Shown one piece after another: positions 1,110-45,280 of a stretch of DNA of 45,280 nucleotides (position 1 is its first letter; the number at the start of each line of letters is the position of its first letter). A program made the position numbers and the translations under genes. Source of the DNA: a virus. The notes below the pieces were generated by a model. It did not search any database, had not been told where the DNA came from, and saw only the letters and a list, made by a program, of their open reading frames with translations. The DNA is taken from positions 1 through 45,280 of IMG/VR virus record IMGVR_UViG_3300032144_000022; one strand, given 5' to 3'.

Positions 1110-1125
1110 GATTAACTCGTTAACC
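1110..1125. promoter_or_regulatory. 16-bp palindromic operator, copy 1
   Basis: GATTAACTCGTTAACC matches the window-wide consensus GGTTAACNSGTTAACC except at the second base. It sits 16 bases before the start of the 59-aa gene, where a bound protein could block transcription into integrase. Confidence 0.65.
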
Positions 1126-2545: not shown

Positions 2546-2561
2546 GGTTAACTCGTTAACT
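2546..2561. promoter_or_regulatory. 16-bp palindromic operator, copy 2
   Basis: GGTTAACTCGTTAACT, one mismatch to the consensus at its last base. It ends exactly where the CRP-type site begins and lies 8 bases after the integrase stop. Confidence 0.75.
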
Positions 2562-2577
2562 TGTGACGCAGCTCACA
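2562..2577. promoter_or_regulatory. Perfect CRP-type site (TGTGA-N6-TCACA)
   Basis: TGTGACGCAGCTCACA is an exact TGTGA-N6-TCACA palindrome, the consensus of CRP/FNR-family activators. Its centre is 41.5 bases before the transcription start predicted from the -10 box at 2599, the position typical of class II CRP activation. It fills exactly the 16 bases between two phage operators. Confidence 0.6.
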
Positions 2578-2593
2578 GGTTAACCCGTTAACC
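2578..2593. promoter_or_regulatory. 16-bp palindromic operator, copy 3
   Basis: GGTTAACCCGTTAACC, both half-sites perfect. Symmetry extends two bases each way (CAGGTTAAC and GTTAACCTG). It covers the normal -35 position of the promoter whose -10 box is CATACT at 2599-2604, so binding here should exclude RNA polymerase. Confidence 0.8.
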
Positions 2594-2598
2594 TGTGG

Positions 2599-2604
2599 CA
2601 TACT
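2599..2604 (+). promoter_or_regulatory. -10 box of the predicted early promoter; near-leaderless transcript
   Basis: CATACT lies 5 bases after operator copy 3. The predicted start is about 2611, with the ATG of the next gene at 2612, and there is no ribosome-binding site, so the first gene would be read from a leaderless mRNA. The same spacing (operator, 5 bases, -10 box) recurs at 8024-8050. There is no good -35 box, which fits dependence on an activator. Confidence 0.5.
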
Positions 2605-2611
2605 GTGCCCC

Positions 2612-2773
2612 ATGAACCGCCAAGACATTATCTGCAACGTGTTCGCCTTCGGCCAGCTCCAGGCTGTGCTCGGGCTCGAAGTCGCGCTGGCGCTCTTCGC
2701 GCTCGGCGGCTTCGTCGCATACACGCGGTACTTGCTGCGCACTGGCTACCAGGCTAACCCGCTGCTCGGCTAA
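2612..2773 (+). CDS. Small membrane protein, first early gene
   Basis: 53 aa, starting MNRQDIICNVFAFGQ. Residues about 17-38 form one hydrophobic helix, followed by a basic/aromatic turn. There is no Shine-Dalgarno sequence; the ATG coincides with the predicted transcription start, so leaderless translation is likely. It is the first gene behind the operator/CRP-site array and so is probably made early or during lysogeny. Function unknown. Confidence 0.55.
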   Translation: MNRQDIICNVFAFGQLQAVLGLEVALALFALGGFVAYTRYLLRTGYQANPLLG

Positions 2774-4401: not shown

Positions 4402-4805
4402 GTAACGAAGCAGTGAAGCGCTACGCGTGCACCAGCTACGAGTGCCACGGCGAAGCCGACAAGCCCGGCGTGTGCCCGGAGTGCAAAGTGCAGCAGCTCG
4501 CCGAGCGCGTGCACGAAGTCTGGCTGCCGAAAACGTTCTGGCTAGACCACGCCGAGCGAGCGCTGCCTGCCGGCGACGTGGTGAAGTGGGCAGGGAACCG
4601 CGGGCTAATCAAGTGCAGCGAGTCCGAGCTGGCCGAGATTGCGAGCGACGCCGATCACTACGCGCACGAGTTCGGACCGGATGCCGACGGGCTCGAAGGT
4701 ATCAAGCGCAGCGCTAAGGCGACGCAGCGCGCAATCAAGCGCTACCTAGAGCGGCGCGCAGAGCTGCAAGCAATCAAAGCGCGGGCTGCGCAGTGGCCAG
4801 CATGA
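4398..4805 (+). CDS. Hypothetical protein with N-terminal zinc-ribbon-like motif
   Basis: 135 aa. Cys11, Cys16, Cys26 and Cys29 (CTSYEC and CPEC) could form a zinc ribbon. The rest is charged and helical, with a basic helix near the C-terminus (AIKRYLERRAEL). This could bind nucleic acid or a protein partner. The start is set by the ATGA overlap with the 47-aa gene; a longer upstream frame would overlap it fully. Confidence 0.6.
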   Translation: MSNEAVKRYACTSYECHGEADKPGVCPECKVQQLAERVHEVWLPKTFWLDHAERALPAGDVVKWAGNRGLIKCSESELAEIASDADHYAHEFGPDADGLEGIKRSAKATQRAIKRYLERRAELQAIKARAAQWPA

Positions 4806-5002
4806 CGCAGCCAACAAAGCAGCGGGTAATGCAGCGCCTTAGCGACGAGCTGGCCGAGCTGGTTAGCCGGCAGCCGAACCTGTCACACCAGGAAGTACTG
4901 CACGGGCTCGCGCTGTTAGTAGAGCTGCACGTTATCGCAGGCACGAGCCAGCGCCAGGAAGAGCCGCGCGGCTTGCTGCTGCTTCCAAATCGGCGCACTT
5001 AG
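4802..5002 (+). CDS. Small hypothetical protein
   Basis: 66 aa, starting MTQPTKQRVMQRL, coupled to the previous gene by an ATGA overlap. Residues about 8-50 look helical. It ends the run of coupled early genes and is followed by 130 bases with no clear gene. Confidence 0.55.
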   Translation: MTQPTKQRVMQRLSDELAELVSRQPNLSHQEVLHGLALLVELHVIAGTSQRQEEPRGLLLLPNRRT

Positions 5003-5541: not shown

Positions 5542-5557
5542 GGTTAACGCGTTAACC
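5542..5557. promoter_or_regulatory. 16-bp palindromic operator, copy 4
   Basis: GGTTAACGCGTTAACC is a perfect palindrome, and symmetry continues one base on each side (5541-5558). It ends 5 bases before the TTGACA box of the promoter at 5563, so with the half-site in that promoter's spacer it brackets the -35 box. Confidence 0.8.
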
Positions 5558-5562
5558 AGCGC

Positions 5563-5591
5563 TTGACAGCGCGTCCGTTAACCCGGATAGT
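5563..5591 (+). promoter_or_regulatory. Strong sigma70-type promoter with operator half-site in its spacer
   Basis: TTGACA (5563-5568), 17-base spacer, GATAGT (5586-5591): the best promoter in the window. GTTAAC at 5577-5582 lies inside the spacer. The predicted start is near 5598 and it reads towards the 31-aa gene, against the - strand gene at 5786-6442. Confidence 0.7.
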
Positions 5592-5666
5592 TCGCAGCAC
5601 TAACCAAATGCGTGCGCGGCGACAATATCGGCCGCCGTGACGCGCAAAGCAAAGGAGTGCAGCACC

Positions 5667-5785: not shown

Positions 5786-6442
5786 CTACTTGTCCGAGAG
5801 AATGCTGGACAGCTCTTCAGCGAAGCGCTGCAGAAGCTCTTCGACACGCTGCACGTTCTTGCCGCGCTTCACGCGCTCTGCGTCGCGCGTAATCGCCGCG
5901 AGCGGTGCAACGAACGAGTGGTACACGCCAGTGCCCGCGAAGACTGCCTGCAAGTCGGCCGGACTCAAAGTGCCGTCGGACAGGTGGCCAATGGCCGGCA
6001 CCTTAGCTGGCGGCAGCAGCTGCGCTTGCACCTTATCCAGCACAGCCTTGCGGTATTCGTACTCGCTGCGGTAGTCGAGCACGTTAACGCCCATCTTCAT
6101 GCCGCGAAGAATGTTCGACTTTTGTACAGCCCAGCTCTTAAGGCCGCGCTCTGGGTCTTTCAGGTTCGTAATCTCGTGCGCTTGCTTCAAGCGCTCTTCG
6201 GCCAGCTCGGTAGCGAGCCGGTACTGGCCAATCTGTACGCCACGATTCTTCGACAGCTTCGCGGCCATGTGCGCCAGGTTCATAAGCCGCTCGCTGCTCT
6301 TGTCCGCCGCTGCGTGCAGCTCTTCCTCTTTCGCACGGAGCCCGCCTGGCCCGTGGTAGTCGTCGTACATAGCCTTAATGGCTTTCCACGCAGCAGCCTT
6401 AAGAGCTGGGTCTATGTCGTCTGCGGTTAGCTGCTTCGACAC
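5786..6442 (-). CDS. Hypothetical helical protein, antisense to the rest of the early region
   Basis: 218 aa with a GTG start, supported by TGGAGG about 8 bases upstream. It is mostly charged and helical (residues about 30-95 and 185-215), with a central hydrophobic or Gly/Pro-containing part. No HTH, membrane helix or catalytic motif is visible. It is divergent from the DUF1376-like gene and convergent with the strong promoter at 5563. This is where a lysogeny regulator might sit, but the sequence itself does not show one. Confidence 0.7.
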   Translation of the reverse strand: MSKQLTADDIDPALKAAAWKAIKAMYDDYHGPGGLRAKEEELHAAADKSSERLMNLAHMAAKLSKNRGVQIGQYRLATELAEERLKQAHEITNLKDPERGLKSWAVQKSNILRGMKMGVNVLDYRSEYEYRKAVLDKVQAQLLPPAKVPAIGHLSDGTLSPADLQAVFAGTGVYHSFVAPLAAITRDAERVKRGKNVQRVEELLQRFAEELSSILSDK

Positions 6443-6551: not shown

Positions 6552-6567
6552 GGCTAACGAGTTAACC
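6552..6567. promoter_or_regulatory. 16-bp palindromic operator, copy 5, touching a start codon
   Basis: GGCTAACGAGTTAACC has two mismatches to the consensus. It ends at the base before the ATG at 6568 and overlaps the ribosome-binding region (AAAAGG). It lies in the 125-base gap between divergent genes, so it could affect both. Confidence 0.6.
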
Positions 6568-6972
6568 ATGGCAGAGTTACCAATATCCGAGCTAGTCGCG
6601 CGAGCAGCCGAGCTGCGCATGCAGCTGTCCGGCCGCCTACCCGAGCGCGTCTACTGGGGCTGGAAAGACTTCCTTGTGGGCACCAGCACCATGCCAGGCG
6701 CAGCCGTCGGCGCGTACGTGCTGCTGCTGCACCACCAGCTCGACAAAGGCAGCCTGCCAGTGGACACAGGCGAGCTGCTGCGCATCGGCCGCATTGAAGG
6801 CACCACGGACGTGCTCGGCCATGTGCTAGGAAAGTTCCAGCAGCTCGGCGACCACTTCTACAACGTTCGCATGCTGCAAGAGTTCGTAGCGGCAGCAGAG
6901 CAAGCCGTGCGAGCACGGCGGAATGGCGTGCGCGGCGGCAGGCCGAAGAATGACGAACCTTTCCCGAGCTGA
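6568..6972 (+). CDS. DUF1376/YdaU-like phage protein
   Basis: 134 aa. The pattern VYWGWKDFLVGT, GAYVLLLHHQLDKGSLPVD, a short linker, then GDHFYNVRMLQE follows the DUF1376 family (YdaU of the Rac prophage), as does the C-terminal RNGVRGGRPKN. DUF1376 proteins lie in the replication/regulation part of lambda-like phages and are thought to help replication initiation; the function is not proven. It is smaller than usual because no second replication domain follows. Confidence 0.65.
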   Translation: MAELPISELVARAAELRMQLSGRLPERVYWGWKDFLVGTSTMPGAAVGAYVLLLHHQLDKGSLPVDTGELLRIGRIEGTTDVLGHVLGKFQQLGDHFYNVRMLQEFVAAAEQAVRARRNGVRGGRPKNDEPFPS

Positions 6973-7157: not shown

Positions 7158-7466
7158 ATGGCAACGCATTACAAGCAACGTCCACCGCTGGAGCTGGAGC
7201 GCCGCGCGAAGCGTGAAGCGCAGACAGCAGCCCGCGCCCAGCTCGTGCTGCACGAGACAGCGCCGGCCTTCTTCTCGCAGTGCTCGCCGTGGCGCGAGTT
7301 CTTGCTGCCGTCCGTGATGCTCGCCGAGCATGCGGGCCACTATCACAGCCTTAAATGGCAGCCGACGCGCAGACGCTGGCGGCTCGTCGTCGTGTGCAAT
7401 CCGCGCGCGTTCGGCGCAGGCAACGTCCACGCCAGACACGCGACGGGGCACTACGCGCATGGCTAA
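7158..7466 (+). CDS. Hypothetical protein
   Basis: 102 aa. A basic, helical N-terminal third (LELERRAKREAQTAARAQ) is followed by a globular part with several Trp and His residues. AAGGGA precedes the ATG. The 185 bases upstream hold no convincing gene. The last 8 bases overlap the next gene. Confidence 0.6.
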   Translation: MATHYKQRPPLELERRAKREAQTAARAQLVLHETAPAFFSQCSPWREFLLPSVMLAEHAGHYHSLKWQPTRRRWRLVVVCNPRAFGAGNVHARHATGHYAHG

Positions 7467-7857
7467 CCTGGAACCGTGGAAGCCGCACGCTCGCAGGCTG
7501 CATGCCGCAGGGCGCAGCGTTCGCGACGTGTGCCGCGCTCTGGAAGAGTTCTACGGCATTCCGTTTTCGTTCGGAAAGGTGCAGCGCTTTCTTGCGAGGG
7601 GCCGCGAATCAGTTTCGGCCTATTCAAGTGTCAGTCTGAAAATTCAACGCGAAAACGAAACGAGTAACAGCCATGGGCACGACGAAGTAACAGGCGCAGC
7701 TCGCGACCATCGCGACGATGACGCCGAGCGCTGGCTAAGCCGGAACGATCCGGCCTACGCCGAAACGCGGCGCCAGTGGCAGCAGTGCCGCACAGATGCG
7801 ATAGCGCGCCAGTCCGGCTCAGGACTGCAGGCCGTCGCGAGCGACGCCGACGAGTAA
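7459..7857 (+). CDS. Hypothetical protein with possible N-terminal HTH
   Basis: 132 aa. Residues 5-45 (HARRLHAAGRSVRDVCRALEEF followed by FGKVQRFLARG) resemble the helix-turn-helix of phage and transposon-type DNA-binding proteins. The remaining half is hydrophilic and low in order. It overlaps the upstream gene by 8 bases. A DNA-binding role is a reasonable guess, no more. Confidence 0.55.
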   Translation: MANLEPWKPHARRLHAAGRSVRDVCRALEEFYGIPFSFGKVQRFLARGRESVSAYSSVSLKIQRENETSNSHGHDEVTGAARDHRDDDAERWLSRNDPAYAETRRQWQQCRTDAIARQSGSGLQAVASDADE

Positions 7858-8084
7858 CAGGGAATGGGCGACGAGCACGCCCAGCAAGCCGGCGCAATGC
7901 TGGCACCGCGGCCGGCCCGGCCAATAAGAAGCCCGCATCCAAGCCGCATTTCTCCCTGGCGGCTGGGCTAGTCAAGAAAGAGCTGGGCCGGCCGCACCTT
8001 CGAGAAAGTGTGACGCAGTTACGGTTTAACTAGTTAACCAGCGGTACGATGGCAGCTACTCGTTAACTTACGGAGCGCACGCAA
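7858..8084. other. Gap with control sites and a possible broken small gene
   Basis: The right end holds operator copy 6 and a promoter. The left part has coding-like sequence in two frames: an ATG at 7864 opens 35 codons, and the frame ending at 8033 (KKPASKPHFSLAAGLVKKEL) looks coding but has no start. One frameshift in the GC-rich run near 7905-7925 would join them, so this may be a decayed gene. Confidence 0.3.
8024..8050 (+). promoter_or_regulatory. Operator copy 6 and -10 box of the accessory-island promoter
   Basis: GTTTAACTAGTTAACC at 8024-8039, then 5 bases, then TACGAT at 8045-8050. The sequence TGTGACGCAG at 8009 precedes it, as before operator copy 3, but the second CRP half-site is degenerate here. 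A further half-site, CGTTAAC, follows at 8061-8067. The promoter would read into the membrane protein gene at 8085. Confidence 0.55.
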
Positions 8085-14822: not shown

Positions 14823-15104
14823 ATGTCGAAAGACAAGAACGAAGAGAAAGCCATCATTGCGAAGCCGTCGATTAGCGCGGAAGACTTCGTGCGAGCTTGG
14901 CAGAAGTCCGCCAGCGTCAAGGCTGTGTGCGACACGCTCGGAATTTCCGAGACGGCGGCGAACAGCCGAGCGAGGAACTACCGCAAGGCCGGCGTGCAGC
15001 TCAAGAAGATGGAAGGCGGGCAGAAAGGGCGAAAGCTCGACGTGTCCGGCTTGAACACTCTTGCGGCGTCGCTGCTGGAGCAGCCCGCGGAAGGTTCCAA
15101 GTAA
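14823..15104 (+). CDS. Helix-turn-helix DNA-binding protein
   Basis: 93 aa. Residues 17-50 (SAEDFVRAWQKSASVKAVC, DTLGISETAANSRARNYRK) form a clear HTH with a basic recognition helix, then a Lys/Arg-rich linker and a helical tail. Such small proteins occur in many proteobacterial phages as regulators. Unusual repeats lie directly before its gene and after the following gene, so both may be its targets. GAAGGGA is the ribosome-binding site. It is one candidate for the protein that reads the repeated sites of this phage. Confidence 0.7.
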   Translation: MSKDKNEEKAIIAKPSISAEDFVRAWQKSASVKAVCDTLGISETAANSRARNYRKAGVQLKKMEGGQKGRKLDVSGLNTLAASLLEQPAEGSK

Positions 15105-15756: not shown

Positions 15757-15772
15757 GGTTAACGCGTTAACC
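15757..15772. promoter_or_regulatory. 16-bp palindromic operator, copy 7
   Basis: GGTTAACGCGTTAACC, identical to copy 4. A further half-site, GTTTAAC, follows at 15775-15781. It lies between the TGTCG repeats and the next gene, as expected for repression of a promoter here. Confidence 0.8.
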
Positions 15773-15810
15773 CTGTTTAACGGGCCGCCATGGCCCGCGG
15801 AGTCGTACCC

Positions 15811-22669: not shown

Positions 22670-24334
22670 GTGAACACACTAATACGCACCAGTCGGCGCC
22701 TTACGCGCGCATTCAAGGCTGCCATTAAGGCCGCGACGCTTACGCCAGTAGGCAGCACAGGACGCTGGCTTACTGTGTACGAAAGCTTTAGCGGCGCATG
22801 GCAGCAAGACGTTGCGCTGGACCAGGGCACGATACTTAGCAACACCACGGTGTTCGCGTGCATTCGGCAGATTGCAAACGACATTGCAAAGCTGCCGATT
22901 AATCTAATAGCGCCCATGGCAACGGCGCCGCAAGTGTGGCAGCCGACGGAGAACGCCGCGCACTCGCCTGTGCTGCGCAAGCCGAACCACTACCAAACCC
23001 GCTTCGAGTTCTTCATGTGGTGGCTTACGTCGCTGCTAATCGCAGGCAACACGTACGTGCTAAAGAAGCTCGACGCGTCCGGCATCGTGCGCAAGCTCAT
23101 AGTGCTAGACCCCACGCTGGTTACGGTGCTCGTCTCTACCAGCGGCGACATTTTCTACCGGCTAAGCACGGACCACTTGGCCGGAGTCTTGCCAGACGGC
23201 AGCGGCGACGGCACCAGCGTAACCATTCCTGCGCGCTTCATCATTCACCACAAGTACCTAACGCTTAACCATCCCCTAGTAGGCTGCTCGCCGCTGCAAG
23301 TGGCAGGGCTCGCTGCTACCGCAAACTACAAGATTGCCGAGCACACGAAGCGCTTTTACACGAACTACGCGCGCCCAGCTGGCACGCTCGAAGCTCCGGG
23401 CGAAATCACGGACGAGCAAGCCGACAGACTCAAAGAGCGCTGGGACGAGTTCCGCACGGAAGAGAACGCCGGCCGGCTGCTCGTGCTGGAAGAGGGCTTG
23501 AAGTTCAACGGCATGACCATGAACGCCACGGACGCGCAGCTTATCGAGACGCTTAAGTGGACGGCGGAAGATATCTGCAACGCGTTCGGCGTGCCGGCGT
23601 GGAAGATCGGCGCCGCGGGCGCAGTCGCTCCGAACGGCGCGACGGCGGAAGCTCGCGAGCAAATGTACTACAGCAGCACGCTGCAGCCGCTAATCGAGTG
23701 CATCGAGCTGCTGCTGGACGAAGGGCTGGCGCTGCCAAAAGACTTGGGCGTGGAGTTCGACTTGTGGCACCTGCTGCGGCTCGACACTGCGACGCGGTAC
23801 AAGGCTTACTCCGAAGCAATCAAGGGCGCATGGATGGCACCGAACGAGCCGCGAGCCCGCGAAGGCATGGAGCCGAAGGAAGGCGGCGACGCGCTGTACA
23901 TGCAGCAGCAGAATTACTCGCTTGCTGCGCTCGCGAAGCGCGACGCTGGAGAAGACCCGTTCGGCAAGAAGCCGCCGCCTGCACTGCCCGCTCCGCAGCC
24001 GGAAGCCGGCGAAGAAATCGAGCCACAAGAGGGCCAGCTGGGCTTCCCGATTATTCAGCCGTACGACGCGACGCGCACTTACACCATGGGCGAGTTCTGC
24101 ACGCGCGGCGGCAGCACGTACCAGCTCGTGGTTAACTCGTTAACAGGCGTTGCGCCTGGCACGAAAGACGTGCACGCGTGGACTGTGATTGCTCGCGGCG
24201 GACGCGACGGCAAAGACGCCGTGCCAGACGAAGCTCTGCGCGCAGCGCACGAGCAGCTGCTGCGACGCGTGGACGCGCTCGACGGTCGCACGCAGGTGCT
24301 GGCCGAAGAGCTGCATATGAGCTTCAAGCAGTAA
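22670..24334 (+). CDS. Portal protein, HK97 type, with C-terminal carbohydrate-binding-like extension
   Basis: 554 aa, GTG start. The portal core fills about residues 30-430 (WQQDVALDQGTILSNTTVFA, then ACIRQIANDIAKLPINL). After an acidic Pro-rich linker, residues about 463-506 read YDATRTYTMGEFCTRGGSTY then GVAPG and AWTVIARGG, the pattern of small CBM5/12-like sugar-binding modules of phage tail proteins, followed by a short GRDGKD collagen-like piece and a coiled coil. Such a domain on a portal is odd. Operator copy 8 lies within this extension. Confidence 0.85.
   Translation: MNTLIRTSRRLTRAFKAAIKAATLTPVGSTGRWLTVYESFSGAWQQDVALDQGTILSNTTVFACIRQIANDIAKLPINLIAPMATAPQVWQPTENAAHSPVLRKPNHYQTRFEFFMWWLTSLLIAGNTYVLKKLDASGIVRKLIVLDPTLVTVLVSTSGDIFYRLSTDHLAGVLPDGSGDGTSVTIPARFIIHHKYLTLNHPLVGCSPLQVAGLAATANYKIAEHTKRFYTNYARPAGTLEAPGEITDEQADRLKERWDEFRTEENAGRLLVLEEGLKFNGMTMNATDAQLIETLKWTAEDICNAFGVPAWKIGAAGAVAPNGATAEAREQMYYSSTLQPLIECIELLLDEGLALPKDLGVEFDLWHLLRLDTATRYKAYSEAIKGAWMAPNEPRAREGMEPKEGGDALYMQQQNYSLAALAKRDAGEDPFGKKPPPALPAPQPEAGEEIEPQEGQLGFPIIQPYDATRTYTMGEFCTRGGSTYQLVVNSLTGVAPGTKDVHAWTVIARGGRDGKDAVPDEALRAAHEQLLRRVDALDGRTQVLAEELHMSFKQ
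24130..24145. promoter_or_regulatory. 16-bp palindromic operator, copy 8, inside the portal gene
   Basis: GGTTAACTCGTTAACA, one mismatch. It encodes VVNSLT of the portal extension. No promoter is evident nearby, so a bound repressor could act as a roadblock to late transcription. Confidence 0.55.
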
Positions 24335-35400: not shown

Positions 35401-35551
35401 TATAGCCGCAAGCGGCACGCTGACAGTGCTAAGCGATTCCACAATCAACACAGGCAGCCGCACGCTTCTTAATGCTGGTCTCATGTATTGCGTGCACGAA
35501 GGCTCAGGCAATTGGACCTGCATTGGCGGCGGCATTTCGTTTGGCGCCTAA
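32450..35551 (+). CDS. Large tail fibre protein with degenerate repeats
   Basis: 1033 aa. An N-terminal beta domain is followed by repeat units ending in LDATALDFNGDADISG (about residue 276), DATLLDFNGAANISG (387), NATTFDFNGIMSVSG (714) and TTTLDINAAADISG (821). The C-terminus (GSGQTFTLDSDPPEDAVVIL) is a common fibre end domain. These trimeric fibres bind host surface sugars. A stretch near 33385-33560 has lower GC and different codons, a sign of mosaic exchange. Confidence 0.85.
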   Translation: MALNVWQASIVDEDGDVQPGASIEVREQSGLTLASIFTDSAGSTPLANPFTADGDGFARFYVEAGRYRIVATFGANSRTWQDVVLGVPFGEIELPALSIVANSTNATAVATALQAANDGEVLQRSSSVLVFAALGPSSLGSGSACSVLGRSANSSGVRADIAASANDRVLARTSDALSFVQLTAGMFPSSLSLATVLTLTASGAGASTSALSLSAAAPFLNIVETDQSADAQRWLLGISAGVLHLGPVADAATGPATAQGIHITRSGTSATEVQLDATALDFNGDADISGTLTVNGVLTGPAGATFTADAVDEFTVKRTSTQYLSFYGTSGANFITSIGSTTATKNLIIQATTNAAGDAGTAEPSVLLRARAGTNVASFDATEIQFDATLLDFNGAANISGVTQIESTTTSTTAPALRVGGSDTTTFSSIISGVRAGSANLVMRNTSDSVEGAFNASTTSVQIGSVTTHPLVLFASNSTRLTLGASTSDPATFVQYGVFPAATTSIPSIRMPHGTAPSSPTNGDVWTTSSGLFVRLNGTTHTVATLEASNTFTGTTQILQSSNPTLQLWNSSAAAGLMRWSVRAETDGDLAVFTVSDAGSAVENAVVISRNSSSEVTNIALTADAVTIQGVSVADYARLSQSNTFTNGTNKFAATTPRLQFDATGATTNQRLTDIIQTTTAFFVRSRTDADGAGSALIAGTRSGTTWTEFQANATTFDFNGIMSVSGDVLAGDGSVTIYGASQSSFPASNASPHLYRATTGHATIGGLAIPGSLVLSPRSGTANSSGVLFKAGLSGSDEAIVAGIGLGVAVFSPSTEFEINTTTLDINAAADISGSLTLGGNLITASTLTIAGTGETLATFADDGAVTLYYDNAVKLATASGGVAVTGTLTASTGLVATTGGLTVSAGGVNITGNCVTPYTSASEVGRAGKPSRDISASTNTAASDMGGTVRFTGGSGQTFTLDSDPPEDAVVILHNVSGNSWTIAASGTLTVLSDSTINTGSRTLLNAGLMYCVHEGSGNWTCIGGGISFGA

Positions 35552-35553
35552 CC

Positions 35554-36045
35554 ATGCACTACGGCATAAACCCGCAGCAGCTGCTGCAGCACGTCGTGCG
35601 CCCTGCCCTGCAGCACATCGGCTTGCACTCGCGAGCTGCCGAACAGCTGGTGCTTGGCACAGCGCTCGTTGAGTCGCGCGGCGAGTACGTTAAGCAGCTC
35701 GGCAAAGGTCCGGCGCTCGGGCTCTGGCAAATGGAGCCCGCGACGCACGACGACATACTGGGCAATTACGTGGCGTACAAGCCGCAACTAAAGCTCTGGC
35801 TTAACGGGTTAACCACGTCGGCGAAGATCACGGACGGAGCGCTGGAGCTGGTAGGGAACCTCTTCTACGCCGCTGCAATGTGTCGCATCCACTACGCGCG
35901 CGTGCGCGATCCACTGCCAGGCGCAGACGAGTTCGGCGACATGGCAATGTACTGGAAGCGTTTCTATAACACTCTGCTGGGCGCTGGCACCGCGGACAAA
36001 GCGCTGCCGCACTTCTACGCTGCTTGCCAGGCTGTAGCCGAGTGA
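35554..36045 (+). CDS. Lytic transglycosylase-type endolysin or virion protein
   Basis: 163 aa. Glu in ALVESRGEY (about residue 33) and the GKGPALGLWQMEPATHDD segment match the E-S and G-L-M/W-Q motifs of lysozyme-like transglycosylases. It would cleave peptidoglycan, either as the lysis enzyme or as a tail-borne hydrolase. No signal peptide is visible, so release would need a holin. Operator copy 9 lies inside it. Confidence 0.65.
   Translation: MHYGINPQQLLQHVVRPALQHIGLHSRAAEQLVLGTALVESRGEYVKQLGKGPALGLWQMEPATHDDILGNYVAYKPQLKLWLNGLTTSAKITDGALELVGNLFYAAAMCRIHYARVRDPLPGADEFGDMAMYWKRFYNTLLGAGTADKALPHFYAACQAVAE
35799..35814. promoter_or_regulatory. 16-bp palindromic operator, copy 9, inside the transglycosylase gene
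   Basis: GCTTAACGGGTTAACC, one mismatch plus a G centre. It encodes part of LNGLTT. As with copy 8 no promoter is seen, but it lies about 240 bases before the replication module. Confidence 0.55.
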
Positions 36046-45246: not shown

Positions 45247-45280
45247 TGAAGATTCTAGGCAATCGGCATTTGGTAATCCC
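45246..45280 (+). CDS. Start of an unknown gene (partial)
   Basis: A GTG start overlaps the cupin stop (TAGTG) and opens the peptide MKILGNRHLVIP up to the window edge. Codon style is like its neighbours. Too short to classify. Confidence 0.4.
   Translation, partial: MKILGNRHLVI

Follow-up and report, generated by a model that had tools for sequence, protein, structure and literature searches.

A putative class II promoter with a CRP-type site between two abutting operators in the genome of a probable temperate phage

The segment 2546-2611 of the phage genome analyzed here is read as a class II promoter which would be activated by a CRP-family protein and repressed through the phage operators flanking the activator site. 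We give this reading a probability of about 0.55, and the binding is inferred from the letters. The window, i.e. the whole stretch of DNA which was analyzed, is the IMG/VR record IMGVR_UViG_3300032144_000022 with 45,280 bases and 62.7% G+C.

The window carries genes for a P4-type integrase, an AlpA-type protein, terminase, capsid, portal, ligase, a DnaB-type helicase and a PolA-type polymerase. Because integrase, AlpA-type, terminase, capsid, portal and replication genes are encoded together, the virus is most likely a temperate tailed phage. A GTG-started ORF runs unbroken across both record ends (approximately 45247-45280 joined to 1-123), which suggests that the genome is complete and circularly permuted. 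No tRNA genes were found in the window, and the search for an attP core through 20-mers common to integrase relatives gave none. Kin of the phage were sought by DNA, terminase, PolA, the 6568 protein and the composite pattern, and none was present in the collections searched; hence the CRP-type site itself was tested in viral contigs, instead of cross-species footprinting of the promoter. Some further features were recorded near the integrase. Direct repeats of CGGGTA with 12-bp spacing flank the region between the AlpA-type gene and the integrase (two copies at 871-895 and three at 1078-1107) and may serve around attP as arm sites of the integrase or as boxes for an excisionase. Directly past the AlpA-type gene, GTGACGTATCCGTCAC at 846-861 is a perfect 6+6 dyad followed by TGTGACCGGGTAACTTACCGGGTA, and its spacing is not that of CRP. 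The AlpA-type protein (387-842) and the protein of 6568-6972 have in common a DUF1376-like domain, which occurs elsewhere in phage primosomal proteins.

An earlier note on this DNA had described an operator, a CRP-type site and a second operator joined without a gap. The letters bear out these coordinates and the abutment, with three 16-bp dyads covering 2546-2593 after the integrase stop at 2538. The segment reads GGTTAACTCGTTAACT, TGTGACGCAGCTCACA, GGTTAACCCGTTAACC and then TGTGG CATACT GTGCCCC up to the ATG at 2612, the bases between the last dyad and this ATG being TGTGGCATACTGTGCCCC. The features of the promoter are as follows:

2546..2561, no strand assigned, operator O2, GGTTAACTCGTTAACT, predicted at -65 to -50
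2562..2577, no strand assigned, CRP-family-type site, TGTGACGCAGCTCACA, centre predicted at -41.5
2578..2593, no strand assigned, operator O3, GGTTAACCCGTTAACC, within a 24-bp dyad at 2574-2597, predicted at about -33 to -18
2596..2604, + strand, extended -10, TGG CATACT (TGGCATACT)

The centre site is, as had been claimed, a perfect TGTGA-N6-TCACA, and it is the sole one in the window (0.02 expected from dinucleotide-shuffled windows). The description of both operator copies as 16-bp palindromes holds for O3, which is perfect over 7+7 bases and extends to 11+11 (CACAGGTTAAC/GTTAACCTGTG); O2 is perfect in its 14-bp core only and has G/T as its outermost pair. The TCACA arm of the CRP-type site is also within the extended dyad of O3, so its match could serve O3, and this counts against the CRP reading.

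The box CATACT agrees with the -10 consensus at four of six positions, A2 and T6 included, and has TGn before it; an extended -10 of this grade is rare in the window (4.4e-5 per position). No -35 was found at 16-18 bp spacing upstream of CATACT, the hexamer at 17 bp being CAGGTT. When the start is predicted at 2611, 12 nt past the base which opens the -10 box, the centre of the CRP-type site falls at -41.5, and the class II placing of the earlier note would hold for this predicted start, with a -10 box which has TGn before it and no -35. The position -41.5 is the classical activating class II position, and a promoter with an extended -10 can do without a -35. The latter property would also suit a promoter which runs on its extended -10 alone, with the dyads for negative control only and the CRP-family protein as a repressor or neutral. 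The activating position and a -10 with only four matches of six speak against such a promoter, and we regard it as quite improbable. A parallel for it is phage T1, where the pir promoter is inhibited by host cAMP-CRP, so that the decision to lyse depends on the sugar supply, Pir being autoregulatory (PMC6737242).

O2 and O3 lie 32 bp apart, or some three turns of the helix, with the CRP centre at 16 bp from both; from this geometry the two operators would lie on the same face of the helix and the activator on the opposite face. The region may also be considered as RNA or as a cruciform, where a long imperfect hairpin ends or regulates the read-through from the integrase. The segment 2530-2625 does fold at -35.5 kcal/mol (z -4.3), but any symmetric set of dyads folds in this way, no U-run follows and most operators are single elsewhere in the genome. 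As there is also no Rfam match, and the sole terminator-like site found is a weak one at 2526-2539, we hold this explanation to be very improbable.

The first gene after the promoter is as follows:

2612..2773, + strand, ORF of 53 aa with a hydrophobic segment, supported by its coding score, first of a run of small + strand genes

Its product gave no family match. Shine-Dalgarno pairing is absent before the ATG at 2612 (-1.5 kcal/mol), whereas the three genes which follow, at 2792, 3090 and 3370, have values of -7.4 to -7.9, which fits a leaderless or near-leaderless first gene from the predicted start at 2611-2612.

The operators belong to a family which is spread over the phage. The core TTAACNNGTTAA has 8 perfect copies in 45 kb against 0.01 expected per dinucleotide-shuffled window. 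Seven of the nine operator copies are fully intergenic in a window of which only 9% is intergenic, by our own, partly approximate, gene calls. The copies besides O2 and O3 are as follows:

1110..1125, no strand assigned, operator O1, upstream of ORF 1142-1321 and the integrase
5542..5557, no strand assigned, operator O4, adjoining a TTGACA-N17-GATAGT promoter-like pair
6552..6567, no strand assigned, operator O5, one mismatch, between the divergent genes 5786-6442 (-) and 6568-6972 (+)
8024..8039, operator O6, in the sister promoter 8009..8050 (+)
15757..15772, no strand assigned, operator O7, upstream of the ATG at 15790
24130..24145, no strand assigned, operator O8, within the portal gene
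35799..35814, no strand assigned, operator O9, within ORF 35488-36045

Ten genomes carrying related integrases (Dyella, Rhodanobacter, Stenotrophomonas, Xanthomonas, Solimonas and others) were used for comparison; only the integrase, with about 40% identity at best, marks them as host-like, and they may not include the true host. In their 54.6 Mb the core TTAACNNGTTAA occurs 3 times, below the reversed control, so the operator does not belong to the motifs of such bacteria. Repeated dyads at promoters which are absent from the host are the mark of temperate-phage operators, and this is the pattern found here with host-like genomes for comparison. In this respect the interpretation of the earlier note is supported, the operators being a phage-wide, promoter-associated family foreign to the host-like genomes. 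Two other arrangements were observed around these copies. A single GGTTAACGG half-site stands exactly 26 bp from a full operator twice (1085/1111 and 5543/5577), in the same relative orientation. At 5543-5600 a perfect -35 TTGACA, a 17-bp spacer and GATAGT lie beside O4 and are directed into a stretch without a recognised + strand gene, towards the lone minus-strand gene 5786-6442; the pair possibly gives an antisense transcript or serves a small gene.

The regulator of these operators was sought within the window. The earlier note had supposed a phage repressor acting at them, and no CI/Cro/XRE-type gene was recognised in the window by Pfam, PHROGs or structure; of the overall reading, the sites, the operator family and, on the predicted start, the class II geometry are supported, whereas the early timing of the promoter, a matching CRP-type protein in the host, the repressor itself and any effect of competition or cAMP are suppositions. 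The candidate regulators are the AlpA-DUF1376 protein (387-842), an HTH-like protein at 7459-7857, another HTH-like protein at 14823-15104 with weak Pfam matches, and the minus-strand gene 5786-6442. The 7459-7857 protein (modelled over 7459-7854) has an N-terminal three-helix HTH-like fold, predicted with fair confidence, and no significant structural match. The promoter region of 5786-6442 (-) holds O5, and the structure model of its product (pLDDT 45) is too poor for use. The HigA operator of P. aeruginosa, TTAAC GTTAA, is read by an HTH dimer (PMC6987408), and the operators here have the same half-site letters. A HigA-type operator was nevertheless rejected, as the published sequence is printed without a spacer whereas two extra central bp separate the halves here, and no HigA-like or other XRE-type gene was recognised in the window.

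A second promoter of similar plan was found further along the genome:

8009..8050, + strand, sister promoter with TGTGACGCAG, O6 (8024-8039) and -10 TACGAT (8045-8050)

Its order is TGTGACGCAG, operator, 6 nt and -10, with the order and the -10 spacing being the same as at 2546, and there is 1 nt less between TGTGACGCAG and the operator. Only the promoter-distal CRP half-site is kept, the right half-site being changed to TTACGG. When positions are drawn at random, about 10% of the sets contain two flanks with a 10-mer in common; the shared 10-mer of 8009 and 2546 alone is only moderately significant, and the order and -10 spacing also agree. Either one half-site suffices at 8009, or the reader of TGTGACGCAG is not a CRP dimer; at the E. 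coli promoter galP1 one CRP half-site is enough.

The retention of TGTGACGCAG without the full dyad is also what would be seen if TGTGA..TCACA were not a host CRP site at all. It could be a part of a phage operator array, made of hexamers in 8-bp phase and read by a single regulator of the phage; also, or instead, TGTGACGCAG could be read by a phage activator. The hexamers at 2547, 2555, 2563, 2571, 2579 and 2587 are indeed phased exactly by 8 bp, half-site-like matches occur at 2555 and 2571, and the O3 dyad reaches into TCACA. However, the middle hexamers GTGACG/GCTCAC fit GTTAAC poorly (3-4 of 6) and the CRP consensus perfectly, and the 16-mer pattern is found again in viral contigs which are unrelated and have other operators; we consider the array somewhat unlikely.

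This recurrence favours the CRP-type site and was surveyed in IMG/VR viral contigs. The pattern TGTGACGCAGNTCACA was present in at least 120 stretches, of which the listed sample is non-random, against 15 (a full listing) for the control with scrambled right arm. Among the matches listed, 56 of 120 sites (47%) are wholly non-coding and 55 of 120 fully coding, while 81% of random positions in those contigs are fully coding and 13 of the 15 scrambled control sites are coding. Contigs with one listed site often have further TGTGAN6TCACA with other inner bases. Among the matches listed, a second perfect dyad lies within 45 nt in 20 of 54 non-redundant non-coding contexts (5.4 on average in shuffles), and dyads lie on both sides in 5 of the 54 (0.17 on average in shuffles); some of these flanking dyads may be terminators or unrelated repeats. 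In an unrelated contig (L179) an operator, a CRP-type site and a related operator stand upstream of a Cro-like gene (YdaS, phrog_35), and in another (L201) an HTH-like gene (4635-5000) is on the other side of the CRP-type site. Contigs like L169 have GAACNNNNGTTC-type boxes, which are SOS-like, on both sides of the CRP-type site. As a separate observation, several TGTGAN6TCACA each were seen in the unrelated contigs L169, L173, L188, L230, L180, L234, L243, L171 and L223, where some sites are interleaved with GAACNNNNGTTC boxes or placed directly upstream of TTGACA -35 boxes. A search for the phage operator beside GTGA in viral contigs gave 7 matches which look like chance, with no dispersed family, and was set aside.

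Few regulators and several terminases were found among 79 proteins beside the listed viral sites, several sites being upstream of terminase genes, so the CRP-type site also occurs outside immunity regions. In the viral contexts among the matches listed, the class II distance did not stand out by a clear -10 peak (6 of 99 in both directions, against about 3 per offset), a point which weighs against the class II reading. In the ten host-like genomes TGTGAN6TCACA occurs 36 times against 3 for the controls, which makes the CRP-type site a part of the vocabulary of such bacteria. TGTGACGCAGNTCACA was absent from the same ten genomes; its inner bases are therefore no habit of the bacterial group, whereas TGTGAN6TCACA generally is. 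With its perfect consensus, and its kind recurring, often in non-coding positions, in other viral contigs, the centre dyad can be upheld as a CRP-type site.

The proposed mechanism may be summarized from these data. The promoter would be of the sigma-70 kind, with its -10 extended and its -35 missing; it would depend on a host CRP-family protein (CRP/Vfr/Clp type) at -41.5, and would drive the small genes past the integrase with a transcript starting at the ATG at 2612 or one base before. A phage-specific dyad-binding regulator on O3 would cover the -35/spacer region, block the polymerase and crowd the activator; bound also at O2, on the same face as O3, it would silence the promoter. Binding by the CRP-family protein, the start site, activation, repression and competition are all predictions of this scheme.

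The closest precedent is the pir promoter of phage T1, which is controlled by CRP; the authors of that study regarded it as the first case in which a phage was seen to eavesdrop on the metabolic signalling of its host (PMC6737242). The likeness is of host CRP on a phage promoter with a phage regulator on the same promoter, both being predicted here. However, CRP inhibits in T1, whereas the position here predicts activation and phage operators abut both sides; T1 is also unrelated, as this phage has a terminase, a capsid and a polymerase which are similar to those of other groups. The plan of E. coli galP1, a chromosomal promoter, is similar, with CRP at -41.5, an extended -10 and no -35. Its CRP site has a single strong half-site, TGTGA, as does the 8009 copy, and adjoins an operator on the upstream side. 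The GalR operators of galP1 act by looping from -60.5 and +53.5, whereas O3 here lies between the CRP site and the -10. Cluster O mycobacteriophages have more than 30 copies of 17-bp dyad repeats, many intergenic and some near promoters, with predicted leaderless transcripts (PMC4351075). They share with this phage the phage-wide symmetric repeats, many of them intergenic, and the predicted leaderless genes, and the cognate protein is unknown there; they differ in copy number and sequence, in having most copies away from promoters and in that no CRP-type site is described. The stoperators of Cluster A are repressor sites dispersed over the phage genome, some in genes, and are asymmetric and oriented with transcription (PMC4351075). 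Putative repressor sites are scattered here too, some inside genes, but they are symmetric dyads, mostly at promoters, and lack the asymmetry of stoperators.

CRP at a T1 promoter, phage dyads with leaderless promoters in Cluster O and the galP1 plan are thus known already; what is new is the abutting operator-CRP-operator sandwich, together with the fact that CRP-type sites seem to recur next to phage operators. Similar sites in the control regions of unrelated viruses suggest that phages may often tie their own genes to the host metabolic state. Only tentatively, many unrelated phage lineages may have independently set sites for host CRP-family proteins into their operators or between them, with cAMP input a general feature of phage switches and the promoter at 2546 a very compact case. 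If CRP-type sites are common beside phage operators, as the viral contigs suggest, nutrient control of lysis or lysogeny would be written in phage promoters, and, if true, such control would be predictable from sequence.
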